In this document: in pieces, positions 12,752 to 22,570 of the stretch | How the letters are laid out: every line of letters starts with the position of its first letter | Position numbering within the stretch: position 1 is the stretch's first letter | Origin: a virus | Virus record (IMG/VR): IMGVR_UViG_3300042564_000380 | Span: 1-26,781 of that record | Strand: one strand, 5' to 3' | DNA length: 26,781 bases | Made by a program: the position numbers and the translations under genes | Notes under the pieces: generated by a model | Told to the model about the DNA's origin: nothing | The model's database searches: none | The model's input: the letters and a program-made list of their open reading frames with translations, nothing else

Positions 12752-13264
12752 ATGTTCGGTATGATCCCATTACCATATAAGTTACTGGCAGGTGTTGCTT
12801 TAATACTTGGTGTGTTTGTGTTTGGTTACATGAAGGGATCTGCTCATGCTGAGTTGGAACTGCAAAGATTTGCTGCTAAGAATGCAACATTAACTGCAGA
12901 TATGGAAAAGAAAAATTCAGAGATCTCCACCGAAGTGGTGACTCAATATGTTGACCGTGTAAATACAATTAGGGAAAAAGAATATGTCTATCGCGATATC
13001 GCCAAAACTGTTGTGCCTTCTCAGTCTGTCCTTTCTAATGGTTGGGTGTTCACGCACGACATTAGTGCCACAGGCAGTAATGCCGACGCCACCAGAAGTT
13101 CTGATGCGTCCCCCTCAGGTATTGCAGACAATCAAGCCCTCTTCACCATCGTCGGAAACTACGCAACCTGTCAAGCAAACGCCGAGCAATTGATTGCTCT
13201 TCAGAAATGGATTGCGGATAACAAGACAGCGATCGACGAACTAAACAAGAAAGCGAAAAAGTAA
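12752..13264 (+). CDS. Rz: Inner-membrane spanin subunit, Rz-like
   Basis: 170 residues: a short cytoplasmic N-terminus, one membrane segment (about residues 9-27, LLAGVALILGVFVFGYM), then a charged periplasmic helix with coiled-coil character (ADMEKKNSEISTEVVTQYVDRVNTIREKEYVYRDI) and a C-terminal helix. This is the i-spanin layout: it bridges the periplasm with the Rz1 lipoprotein and helps fuse inner and outer membranes at the last step of lysis. Decisive support is the embedded lipoprotein gene in the +1 frame (12984-13193). An AGAGGAAA ribosome site (12740-12747) precedes the ATG. Confidence 0.88.
   Translation: MFGMIPLPYKLLAGVALILGVFVFGYMKGSAHAELELQRFAAKNATLTADMEKKNSEISTEVVTQYVDRVNTIREKEYVYRDIAKTVVPSQSVLSNGWVFTHDISATGSNADATRSSDASPSGIADNQALFTIVGNYATCQANAEQLIALQKWIADNKTAIDELNKKAKK
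12984..13193 (+). CDS. Rz1: Outer-membrane spanin lipoprotein, Rz1-like, embedded in Rz
   Basis: A 69-residue gene wholly inside Rz in the +1 frame. It encodes a lipoprotein signal (MSIAISPKLLCLLSLSFLMVGC with Cys22 as lipidation site; the lipobox LMVGC is slightly unusual) and a short proline-rich mature part (PQAVMPTPPEVLMRPPQVL). That is the standard o-spanin form. An AGGGA site (12971-12975) lies eight bases ahead of the ATG. Nested Rz1 genes are known from lambda; the chance of such a signal peptide, lipobox and Pro-rich tail arising as a shadow in exactly this place is small. Confidence 0.85.
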   Translation: MSIAISPKLLCLLSLSFLMVGCSRTTLVPQAVMPTPPEVLMRPPQVLQTIKPSSPSSETTQPVKQTPSN

Positions 13265-15459: not shown

Positions 15460-15897
15460 ATGGATGAATTGAACACATCAATGAAGATAGTGCTCGCAAA
15501 TACTTTTGCGATGTATTTCAAAGCACATGGGCATCACTGGAATGTAGAAGGCAAAGACTTCTCCCAAATGCACGACTTCTTTTCGAACATCTATGAAGAA
15601 CTATTCGCTGCGGTTGATCAGATTGCTGAGCAGATTCGTGCACTAGATGATTATGTGCCTTATGGTCTAGATACTATGTCCAGTATTGCTACCATCAAAG
15701 ATTCATCAATCAATGGTAACAGTATTCCGTCGATGCTTCAAGATTTAATGGATGCCAACGCATCAGTCATCGAAGCATTGAATGCTGCGCATAAACTGGC
15801 GGAAGCAGAAGGTAACAGAGGTCTTGTTAATCATATTGAAGGGCGTCTTGATGTTCATGCTAAGCATGGATGGATGCTTCTCGCAACCTCAAAGTAA
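15460..15897 (+). CDS. Dps/ferritin-like ferroxidase
   Basis: 145 residues, a four-helix ferritin-like protein of the Dps family. The ferroxidase ligands of E. coli Dps map well: H26 (HHWNVEG), H38 (12 residues on), D53 and E57 (D-x3-E in AVDQIAEQIRALD); the position equal to Asp67 is Ser42. Dps proteins form 12-mers that oxidise and store iron with peroxide, and some bind DNA. It is shorter than E. coli Dps (167) and lacks its Lys-rich N-terminal tail, so DNA binding is doubtful. Found one base after the internal-protein gene and just ahead of a late promoter box, it is likely made late and may be packaged or protect DNA during assembly; both are inference. Confidence 0.9.
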   Translation: MDELNTSMKIVLANTFAMYFKAHGHHWNVEGKDFSQMHDFFSNIYEELFAAVDQIAEQIRALDDYVPYGLDTMSSIATIKDSSINGNSIPSMLQDLMDANASVIEALNAAHKLAEAEGNRGLVNHIEGRLDVHAKHGWMLLATSK

Positions 15898-15905
15898 TAT
15901 AAATA
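15898..15905 (+). promoter_or_regulatory. T4-type late promoter box
   Basis: Exact TATAAATA directly after the Dps stop codon, followed by G. The next gene begins at 15931 behind an AGAGG ribosome site (15917-15921), a spacing like that at the 10139 box. Confidence 0.7.
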
Positions 15906-20306: not shown

Positions 20307-20741
20307 ATGAAGGGTATATTCGATTTTGTCAAAGTGTCGAACAGTATCGACTCTCTAGAAAAACTAGAGATCGAAAAGGGTAAAGTCCAGATCATGATCA
20401 TGAAGATGGCAGCAGTTACGCTGGGATCTATCATGCTTTCTGTTGTGATCATGATGTTGATCGGATTGTTTTTACCAAATGCAATGATCGATAACAATGA
20501 GATCTTCAAGATTATTGGTCCAGCATTCTCGATGATTGTTGGTGCGTTCGTTGGTGCATTTGCTACAATGATGAACATGAAAGTTTCTGAGTTTGATCCA
20601 AATGTTAAAGTCCAAGAAATGGGCAAGACCGATTATAAGCACATCGCTGAAGCAAACTCTATCGAAGCAGATACTGAAATCAGATTGATGGCAGCGGTCG
20701 ATAAGTATAAAAATAGCGACGATGACTTCGGTCCATTCTAA
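20307..20741 (+). CDS. Putative holin (two membrane segments)
   Basis: 144 residues: a charged N-terminal helix (SIDSLEKLEIEKGKVQIMIMKMAA), membrane segment 1 at about 35-57 (VTLGSIMLSVVIMMLIGLFL), a short loop with NAMIDNNE, membrane segment 2 at about 67-89 (FKIIGPAFSMIVGAFVGAFATM), and a charged C-terminal tail. The layout and the place immediately ahead of the endolysin (10 bases) fit a holin that opens the inner membrane at the timed end of infection. Unlike T4 gpT it has two membrane spans. A T4-type rI/antiholin is not evident nearby, though the coiled-coil protein at 22103 is a candidate. Holin function is inferred from context and topology. Confidence 0.65.
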   Translation: MKGIFDFVKVSNSIDSLEKLEIEKGKVQIMIMKMAAVTLGSIMLSVVIMMLIGLFLPNAMIDNNEIFKIIGPAFSMIVGAFVGAFATMMNMKVSEFDPNVKVQEMGKTDYKHIAEANSIEADTEIRLMAAVDKYKNSDDDFGPF

Positions 20742-20751
20742 GGAGTAGATA

Positions 20752-21927
20752 ATGACACAACTAACTGAACATTTTACTCTCGCAGAAATGATTGTATCGC
20801 CAACCGCGAAGCGTCTTGGTATTCCTAACACACCAACTGCTGAACACATTGAGAACATGCGCTACTGCTGTGAAAAGATTCTTGAACCTGTTCGTGCCAA
20901 GTTTGGTCCAGTAACAATCAACTCTTCGTATCGTGCACCACTTGTCAATAAGGCAGTTGGTGGTTCGAAAACATCACAGCATGTCAATGGTCAAGCGATT
21001 GACTTTGAAGTAAAGGGTGTTGACAATAAGAAGGTTGCTGACTGGGTTGCTGACAATCTAGAGTTTGACCAAGTCATCCTCGAGTTTTACTCGGCAGGTG
21101 ACAAGAACTCTGGTTGGGTCCATGCTTCGATTAAGAAGGGCGGCGGAAACCGCAAACAGCGTCTGGTTGCTACCAAGTCTAAGGCAGGTGGAACAAAGTA
21201 TACTCCTGTTGCTGACTTCGATCCAAGCACAACAAAGGAAGCAGGTGCTCCTGTTGTTCAAGCAGTCGCTCAGGTTGCTAAGGCAGCAGTCCAAGCACCA
21301 ACTGTTGCTGGTCTCGGACCAATGCAATCACTACAAGCAAAATGTGGTGTCGCTGCTGATGGTAAGTGGGGTCCAGGAACATTCAAGGCAGCGAGAGATT
21401 ACTTCAAACTATCGACTGCACAAGCAGCACACTTCTTCGGACAGTGTGCTCACGAGTCAGGTGGATTTAAGGTGTTCTCTGAGAATCTAAACTATTCAGA
21501 TAAGGGTCTGAATGGTATCTTCAAGAAGTATTTCCCGACAATCGCTTCGACTGCAGGGTATGCTCGCAAACCAGAGAAGATTGCTAATAAGGTTTATGCA
21601 AACCGTATGGGTAATGGTCCTGAATCTTCAGGTGACGGTTACAAATGGCGTGGTCGTGGTCCTATCCAGTTAACTGGTAAGAGTAACTACACTCAATTCG
21701 CTCAAGACATTGGTCGTCCTGATGTTCTAACAAATCCTGACATCGTTGCAACAGAACTCGCATTCGAGTCAGCACTATGGTTCTTTAACAAGAACGGTCT
21801 GTTCGCAATCGCTGCTAAGGGTGTTACCGATGCAGTTATTGGTCAGATTACTCGTCGCGTAAACGGTGGCACGCATGGTCTAGATGACCGTATCAAGAAA
21901 ACTAAACAATTCGCAGCATGGGGATAA
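20752..21927 (+). CDS. Two-domain endolysin: M15 peptidase plus GH19 glycosidase
   Basis: 391 residues. N-terminal domain (about 1-130): a Peptidase_M15-type zinc endopeptidase with SSYRAPLVNKAVGGSKTSQH (H77), D84 in GQAIDFE and H124 in GWVHAS as metal ligands. An Ala-rich linker (about 160-188) leads to a peptidoglycan-binding-like stretch (MQSLQAKCGVAADGKWGPGT). The C-terminal domain (about 215-391) is GH19 chitinase/lysozyme-like: catalytic Glu in AHESGGF (E235), likely second Glu in SENLNY, and the GYKWRGRGPIQLTG signature (297-309). It would cut both peptide cross-links and glycan strands. No signal peptide is visible, so it depends on a holin. The gene lies directly behind the holin candidate. 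Confidence 0.93.
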   Translation: MTQLTEHFTLAEMIVSPTAKRLGIPNTPTAEHIENMRYCCEKILEPVRAKFGPVTINSSYRAPLVNKAVGGSKTSQHVNGQAIDFEVKGVDNKKVADWVADNLEFDQVILEFYSAGDKNSGWVHASIKKGGGNRKQRLVATKSKAGGTKYTPVADFDPSTTKEAGAPVVQAVAQVAKAAVQAPTVAGLGPMQSLQAKCGVAADGKWGPGTFKAARDYFKLSTAQAAHFFGQCAHESGGFKVFSENLNYSDKGLNGIFKKYFPTIASTAGYARKPEKIANKVYANRMGNGPESSGDGYKWRGRGPIQLTGKSNYTQFAQDIGRPDVLTNPDIVATELAFESALWFFNKNGLFAIAAKGVTDAVIGQITRRVNGGTHGLDDRIKKTKQFAAWG

Positions 21928-21931
21928 GAAT

Positions 21932-22102
21932 ATGCTAAATCAAATCAAAGACGCACTAAAGAAACTTTTCGGTTTTGTTGACACTAACAAGGATGGCAAG
22001 GTCGATCTTGCTGAGATTACTGCAGCAGTCGACAAGGCAGAAGCAAAGGTCGAAGAAGTCAAGGCAGTTGTCAAAAAAGTACGCAAACCAAAGGCGAAGT
22101 AA
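21932..22102 (+). CDS. Small EF-hand protein
   Basis: 56 residues from the ATG at 21932, four bases after the endolysin stop. Residues 17-28, DTNKDGKVDLAE, are a perfect 12-residue EF-hand loop (D1, N3, D5, G6, V8, D9, E12), which should bind Ca2+. An amphipathic helix comes before (MLNQIKDALKKLFGFV) and a helix rich in Ala, Lys and Glu follows, ending in a basic tail (KKVRKPKAK). No signal peptide. It stands between lysis genes and a tail-anchored coiled-coil protein, so a role in lysis timing or as a calcium-responsive virion part is possible; neither is established. Confidence 0.8.
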   Translation: MLNQIKDALKKLFGFVDTNKDGKVDLAEITAAVDKAEAKVEEVKAVVKKVRKPKAK

Positions 22103-22570
22103 TTGGAATCTTTGGAAACCAAAGTCGCGGTAATCGAACACGATCTGAAGCAAATTCAGGTCGTGTTCAGTCGTCTCGACCTCGCCATCGAAAAGATTGG
22201 TGATGTTTCCAACTGCATCAATAAGATGCTCGCTGTCCACGATACTAAACTTGAAGCACAAGAATCAGTCAACGAAGATATCTACGAAAGTTTAGAAGTG
22301 CACAGACAAGAAACCAAGGCAATTAATGCCGAGTTACATTCGCGTATCACGACAACTACTCGTGAACTCGAGGCAAAAATTCAGTCTACGGAAGACAAGA
22401 TGCTCGCTGCAATCGGTGCACTAAAAACTTCTGTCGATAAAGAAGAAGAAAAAAACAAAAATCGTATTGACAAATTGGAAAAAACCAAGTATCTTATGAT
22501 TGGTGGTGGTATCGTTATCGGTGCTATCATCACCAAGGTGCTTCCAATGCTTATGAAATTTATTCAATAA
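22103..22570 (+). CDS. Coiled-coil protein with C-terminal membrane anchor
   Basis: 155 residues from TTG at 22103, immediately after the EF-hand stop. Residues 1-128 have heptad-like hydrophobic spacing (ETKVAVIEHDLKQIQVVFSRLDLAIEKI; TRELEAKIQSTEDKMLAAIGALKTSV), then one membrane segment at about 130-149 (YLMIGGGIVIGAIITKVLPML) and a short basic end: a tail-anchored protein with its coil in the cytoplasm. This form is known among phage membrane proteins and could act as an antiholin or lysis regulator, given the preceding holin and endolysin genes. I cannot name the family. It closes the late block. Confidence 0.75.
   Translation: MESLETKVAVIEHDLKQIQVVFSRLDLAIEKIGDVSNCINKMLAVHDTKLEAQESVNEDIYESLEVHRQETKAINAELHSRITTTTRELEAKIQSTEDKMLAAIGALKTSVDKEEEKNKNRIDKLEKTKYLMIGGGIVIGAIITKVLPMLMKFIQ

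Follow-up and report, generated by a model that had tools for sequence, protein, structure and literature searches.

A small protein with an EF-hand Ca2+ loop is encoded next to the endolysin gene of an uncultivated virus with T4-type late genes, and proteins with a similar plan recur among the lysis genes of other viral contigs. The gene lies in a 26,781-base IMG/VR virus record (the window), and our computational analysis confirms it as a real gene with a canonical EF-hand loop. Judging from sequence and gene context, we put at about one half the probability that its product is a late lysis accessory or regulator on the cytoplasmic face of the host inner membrane. Two other readings, a membrane-tethered nucleic-acid binder and a late gene that has no part in lysis, are serious rivals and are weighed below.

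A single EF-hand gene in the lysis region

The initial annotation had described a 56-residue open reading frame (ORF) with one EF-hand, placed between the genes for an endolysin and a tail-anchored coiled-coil protein. The ORF call, Pfam and shuffling bear out the gene, and both neighbours are as claimed (Table 1). The protein matches Pfam EF-hand_1 with an E value of 2.3e-5 and 24.1 bits, missing the cut-off of 25.4 by 1.3 bits, and its 12-residue loop has the canonical ligand and glycine residues D1, N3, D5, G6, D9 and E12. None of 200,000 shuffles of the protein yielded a canonical loop, and a looser PROSITE-like pattern appeared in 79 of 200,000. No other window ORF of at least 40 residues contains a canonical loop. 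A profile search of PDB sequences ranked the EF-hands of SCaMC-1 highest (E 3.4e-6 over the whole sequence), which we take to show likeness of motif and not kinship. AlphaFold placed helices at residues 2–16 and 26–50 on either side of the loop with low confidence (mean pLDDT 60.8, pTM 0.29); a second structure model was also weak (pLDDT 66.8). A longer, 72-residue form starting at 21884 is probably not used, as no in-frame ATG precedes M1 in the relatives L008, L009 and L039.

Table 1 Features of the EF-hand gene and associated elements in the window (TM, transmembrane)
Feature	Position	Strand	Basis
Rz-like i-spanin	12752..13264	+	phrog_4952 E 6.9e-32; phrog_8821 'Rz-like spanin' E 2.3e-8
o-spanin candidate: 69-residue Pro-rich lipoprotein ORF, in another frame inside the i-spanin gene	12984..13193	+	Lipobox scan
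TATAAATA, T4-type late-promoter-like site, nearest (last) upstream of the lysis genes	15898..15905	+	
Two-TM protein, putative holin, acidic C-terminus	20307..20741	+	Adjoins the EF-hand gene in L069, L070, L071, L076 and L209
Endolysin, M15 peptidase + GH19	20752..21927	+	
TGGGGATAAGAAT, endolysin stop and G-rich ribosome-binding-like stretch ahead of the EF-hand gene start	21919..21931	+	
EF-hand protein CDS, 56 residues, MLNQIKDALKKLFGFVDTNKDGKVDLAEITAAVDKAEAKVEEVKAVVKKVRKPKAK	21932..22102	+	ORF, Pfam, loop scan
Residues 1–16, N-terminal amphipathic helix, proposed membrane-surface anchor	21932..21979	+	AlphaFold helix 2–16 (low confidence), hydrophobic moment
Residues 17–28, EF-hand Ca2+ loop DTNKDGKVDLAE	21980..22015	+	Pfam, pattern, pN/pS
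Residues 26–50, exiting helix	22007..22081	+	AlphaFold, low confidence
Residues 48–56, basic tail KKVRKPKAK	22073..22099	+	Family-wide tail charge
Coiled-coil protein, C-terminal hydrophobic segment, TTG start right after the EF-hand gene stop	22103..22570	+	DUF7201, PF23831 E 8.5e-16

The loop is conserved in a close clade

A first scan of viral contigs found 35 loci, and a second, made with an alignment, found 57. A close clade of 42 contigs (L001–L031 and L039–L049) shares, wherever covered, the gene order two-TM gene, endolysin, EF-hand gene, coiled-coil gene and primase. The coiled-coil gene begins at the stop codon of the EF-hand gene in 40 of the 41 contigs that could be assessed (L031 ends inside the EF-hand gene and was left out). 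The sole close-clade case in which the two genes are parted is L008 (4187–6374), where two large genes, of 489 and 238 residues, have been inserted.

We measured pN/pS in 20 close-clade sequences, 19 of them distinct over the compared codons. The ratio was 0.166 over the first 47 codons, 0.141 in the N-terminal helix, 0.087 in the loop and 0.262 in the second helix. At the six ligand and glycine positions pN was 0 and pS 1.1; synonymous sites are saturated in this set, and the ligand positions are still invariant. From these values the loop is under purifying selection in the close clade, and the conservation of loop residues that the initial annotation had chosen as the test of its own proposal is present in these sequences.

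Relatives share a plan of anchor, loops and basic tail

Across a wider family of 90 distinct proteins, compared after their starts were re-chosen, the shared plan begins with an N-terminal anchor, continues through usually one to three loops (pattern D-x-N-x-D-G-K-[VI]-D-x-x-[DE]) into a helix and ends in a tail rich in Lys and Arg. The window protein has a single loop and no paired hands, although two copies could pair by dimerizing, as the initial annotation proposed; among the 90, 40 proteins have one loop, 47 have two, two have three and one has none. The loop was lost in L074, and in L143, a three-loop member, the loop unit looks freshly duplicated, with two near-identical repeats. The last 25 residues are net positive in every one of the 90, and GRK or RKP occurs near the C-terminal end in 60. 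Because the family was picked with loop-like search patterns and counted with a loop-shaped pattern (positions 1, 3, 5, 6, 8, 9 and 12 partly fixed), part of the loop conservation in the wider set stems from hit selection; position 7, which the counting pattern does not fix, is K in 134 of 140 loops. The wider family was joined through short, low-complexity sequence, and some of its members may not be kin of the window protein.

Two members, L057 and L074, differ in their C-terminal segment, which weakly resembles the phage profiles 'prohead protease inhibitor' (E 1.7e-5 for L057), 'endonuclease VII' (E 8.9e-5 for L074) and 'nucleoid associated'; no Pfam family matched this segment above its cut-off. 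On the minus strand, L209 (5215–5532) and L249 (5237–5497) encode a distinct small protein that begins like a signal peptide and has EF-hand-like loops; its gene adjoins an Hsp20-like gene that was assigned by eye.

Searches of Pfam and PHROG with the family gave matches above chance to generic EF-hand and dockerin profiles only, with no strong PHROG match along the length. With the EF-hand as known (Pfam EF-hand_1 and EF-hand_5), the window protein shares the canonical 12-residue loop and the predicted flanking helices; it differs in having one loop within 56 residues, in falling just under the Pfam cut-off, and in its probable anchor and basic tail. The two-loop relatives L059, L060, L061 and L062 pass the EF-hand_1 cut-off. 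Two-loop relatives also exceed the Dockerin_1 cut-off of 22.9 bits (41.8 for L060 and 38.9 for L062), and, as in type I dockerins, most wider-family loops end in D and not E (114 of 140). Unlike a dockerin, with its duplicated loop, the window protein has a single loop with E at the last position, and it is phage-encoded, probably anchored and basic-tailed, with no cellulosome context seen. Foldseek of a two-loop model returned a best E value of 0.35, with dockerin and EF-hand chains among the weak matches. The window protein also has a weak profile match (E 0.0017) to Asr1131 (PDB 9qsb), a cyanobacterial EF-hand Ca2+ sensor that is not known to be anchored or phage-encoded; both are small EF-hand proteins, but the match is limited to profile positions 4–25.

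The initial annotation had called such a loop rare in phage proteins, a view that does not hold: a single related query found 86 matching loci in IMG/VR. Six family queries found no match among cultured phages by tblastn, a weak negative given the poor recovery with the low-complexity filter; in a control with the window query, 48 of 171 known loci were recovered with the filter on, none below 66.7% identity, and 74 with it off. A single scan of contigs from bacterial and archaeal genomes produced 569 pattern matches and no relatives. The EF-hand itself is old; what appears new, as far as the searched part of the literature extends, is a protein that combines an EF-hand with an anchor and a basic tail and is encoded in phage lysis cassettes, for which those searches returned no description, just as they returned no name or description for the family.

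The N-terminus probably anchors the protein in the membrane

The N-terminal helix is probably a membrane anchor. Residues 2–16 of the window protein have a hydrophobic moment of 0.593, equalled or exceeded in 1.2% of shuffles; by the same test the moment was not significant in L053, L069, L032 and L060, which have no TM segment. An N-terminal TM-like segment is present in 54 of the 90 family proteins and absent from 36. At L154, a TM-anchored two-loop protein lies between a gp51-like gene and the coiled-coil and primase genes; as this TM-type protein fills the slot of the EF-hand gene in the window clade, it is a stronger argument for an anchor than the helical moment. Under the positive-inside rule, the order of short N-terminus, TM segment and then basic residues suggests an N-out, C-in orientation, in which loop and tail would face the cytoplasm. 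The window protein does not look like a spanin: a lipobox scan did not flag it, and its close-clade relatives have no TM-like segment.

EF-hand genes recur in lysis cassettes

Six gene arrangements, the close clade included, place the EF-hand gene among lysis genes, so that the lysis-region location first proposed from the window extends beyond the close clade to L032 and L060, the L069 group, L154, L168 and L209. In L032 and L060 the gene is followed by one for a coiled-coil protein with a C-terminal TM segment, which in L060 matches phrog_689 'holin' (E 1.4e-4). In L069, L070, L071 and L076 its stop overlaps the start of a homologue of the two-TM gene by 4 nt. These four loci, with L073 and L077, form an arrangement whose upstream genes include an Rz-like one (tested for L069 and L076); coiled-coil and primase genes lie downstream in L069, L071 and L076, L070 is cut off there, L073 has a different, 83-residue ORF after the EF-hand gene, and the EF-hand protein of L077 is identical to that of L076. 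The TM-type gene of L154 overlaps the coiled-coil gene. The order in L168 is small two-TM protein, TM-type EF-hand protein, 55-residue hydrophobic protein, Rz-like protein, lipoprotein, coiled coil and primase.

The L209 cassette runs from an Rz-like spanin through a lipoprotein spanin, the EF-hand protein and the two-TM protein to the endolysin, with gene ends that overlap or touch, and is bracketed on both sides by opposite-strand genes. It was found through its endolysin and not through its EF-hand gene, and is therefore free of EF-search bias. In the window itself, the lipoprotein ORF within the i-spanin gene forms an embedded Rz1-type arrangement; separate lipoproteins like it come after the Rz-like genes of L209 and L168.

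Late-promoter cores and settings away from lysis

TAAATA is the core of the T4-type late promoter. In the window, the site at 15898 precedes the gene run that leads to the lysis genes. Among the TM-type proteins, 44 of 54 have TAAATA within 60 nt upstream, a count based on re-chosen starts (in an earlier count some of 57 starts were intragenic, at least those of L136, L143, L144, L155, L163 and L169). In the same kind of loci the background was 2.3% for random 60-nt stretches (260 of 11,400) and 24% for other ORFs of at least 100 residues (110 of 463). Stand-alone family members mostly lie behind such a core and are often opposite in strand to their neighbours.

The idea that the EF-hand gene is tied to the endolysin was rejected, as endolysin orthologues often have no EF-hand gene nearby. 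In 80 loci selected by endolysin, the gene was directly downstream in 36 and absent in 40, and 4 loci were cut. Absence here means none within 500 nt downstream and none among the listed ORFs of at least 40 residues in the flank examined, the exceptions being L209 and unrelated minus-strand ORFs. As L209, one of the 40, has its EF-hand gene upstream, 39 of 76 assessable loci have none nearby; the gene is therefore not essential.

Lysis is also not the sole setting. When the 90 proteins were classed by any match within the locus (up to about 8 kb), 31 fell in a lysis or primase cluster (L164 and L169 among them, although their immediate neighbour is Dps-like), 40 in a superoxide dismutase (SOD), UvsE-like or NifU context, 2 near PhoH and 17 elsewhere. 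The SOD-like (by eye), NifU-like Fe–S protein and UvsE-like endonuclease genes form a group in L053, L056, L058, L059, L061, L062 and L129; the EF-loop gene lies between the SOD and endonuclease genes and runs in the opposite direction. In L035, L164 and L169 a TM-type EF-loop gene directly precedes a Dps-like gene. The window also encodes a ferritin/Dps-like protein among its structural genes (15460–15897; Pfam Ferritin E 3.5e-21, phrog_3636).

The coiled-coil gene is present in the cyanophages S-SRM01, S-CAM7, Bellamy, ACG-2014f and S-TIM54, in Caulobacter phage Cr30, and in HTVC008M, Mosig and Melnitz, and in these nine phages it lies directly before the primase gene except in Cr30 and S-TIM54. 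No EF-loop protein was found near it in the stretches examined of any of the nine.

Discussion

We infer the membrane side, the partners and the accessory role of the EF-hand protein as follows. An amphipathic helix, or a TM segment in relatives, would pin the protein to the membrane; the loop would form a Ca2+-dependent turn; and the exiting helix and basic tail could contact partners, most plausibly the tail-anchored coiled-coil protein (22103) and the two-TM protein (20307); the acidic C-terminus of the latter could pair with the basic tail. Since the cytosol normally contains far less Ca2+ than the outside, the loop would stay empty before the holin breaches the membrane and would fill afterwards. 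That Ca2+ filling acts as a switch, and not as a structural staple, is speculative; the idea of Ca2+ inflow fits the proposed cytoplasmic-face topology. T4 RIII is a cytoplasmic antiholin, and the window protein would likewise be a small, cytosol-facing, helical lysis regulator; RIII is not known to have a Ca2+ loop.

The likeliest of the alternatives, although an improbable one in our estimate, is a membrane-tethered nucleic-acid binder, in which the loop would be a hinge, a histone H1-like or RGRKP-type tail would hold DNA or RNA (such as the DNA of phage or host at the envelope late in infection), and the lysis location would be secondary. The uniformly positive tails with their frequent GRK or RKP, the profiles resembled by the L057 and L074 segments, and the many members distant from lysis genes all speak for it. 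Basic tails, however, bind acidic lipids and acidic proteins too, and the repeated placement in lysis cassettes would be left unexplained. The core of an AT-hook is R-G-R-P, which relatives approach with RGRKP but which the window tail, just nine residues long, lacks. Slightly less probable is a late 'moron', a self-contained late gene inserted where tolerated, which would act not in lysis but at the host membrane or in stress (for example, in members near SOD or Dps). Members that stand alone behind a late-promoter core of their own, frequently on the strand opposite to the genes around them, are what such a gene would look like, and the SOD, UvsE and NifU contexts and the Dps-like neighbours agree with it; what does not agree is the occurrence in six distinct lysis arrangements, in several of which gene ends overlap.

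Two further readings have little probability. The phiKT disruptin is described as a short, amphipathic, antimicrobial-like peptide associated with lysis, found because some phages lack spanins (PMC12819732). With 56 residues, a net charge of +5 and an amphipathic N-terminal helix, the window protein could similarly be a cationic peptide that breaks the outer membrane after holin and endolysin have acted. We rejected this as the main explanation once the spanin pair of the window was found, and hold it very unlikely: the window has an Rz-like i-spanin and an embedded o-spanin candidate, L209 and L168 carry both spanin types beside or near the EF-hand gene, the window protein has a conserved EF loop, and TM-anchored relatives are unlikely as free peptides. 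The least probable reading is a minor virion component stabilized by Ca2+, akin to the virion role that the initial annotation had offered as an alternative, for which the analysis brought no support; the late expression context and the tail-fibre and baseplate-like genes upstream would suit it, but no structural profile match carries weight (best PHROG E 0.022), most relatives have a TM segment and the neighbours are lysis genes.

The preferred reading, a late lysis accessory, has a bolder extension: that T4-type phages have a family of membrane-anchored Ca2+-loop proteins which detect the Ca2+ gradient breaking down as the holin perforates the inner membrane, and use this to synchronize the later steps of lysis (spanins, endolysin release and the coiled-coil protein). 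We regard this as improbable. The conserved loop, the gene pairs and the L209 cassette make simple tests possible. The control of lysis has been worked out in a handful of model phages; if the extension is true, a Ca2+-binding protein in the lysis cassettes of uncultivated T4-type phages would add the ion gradient as a new input.
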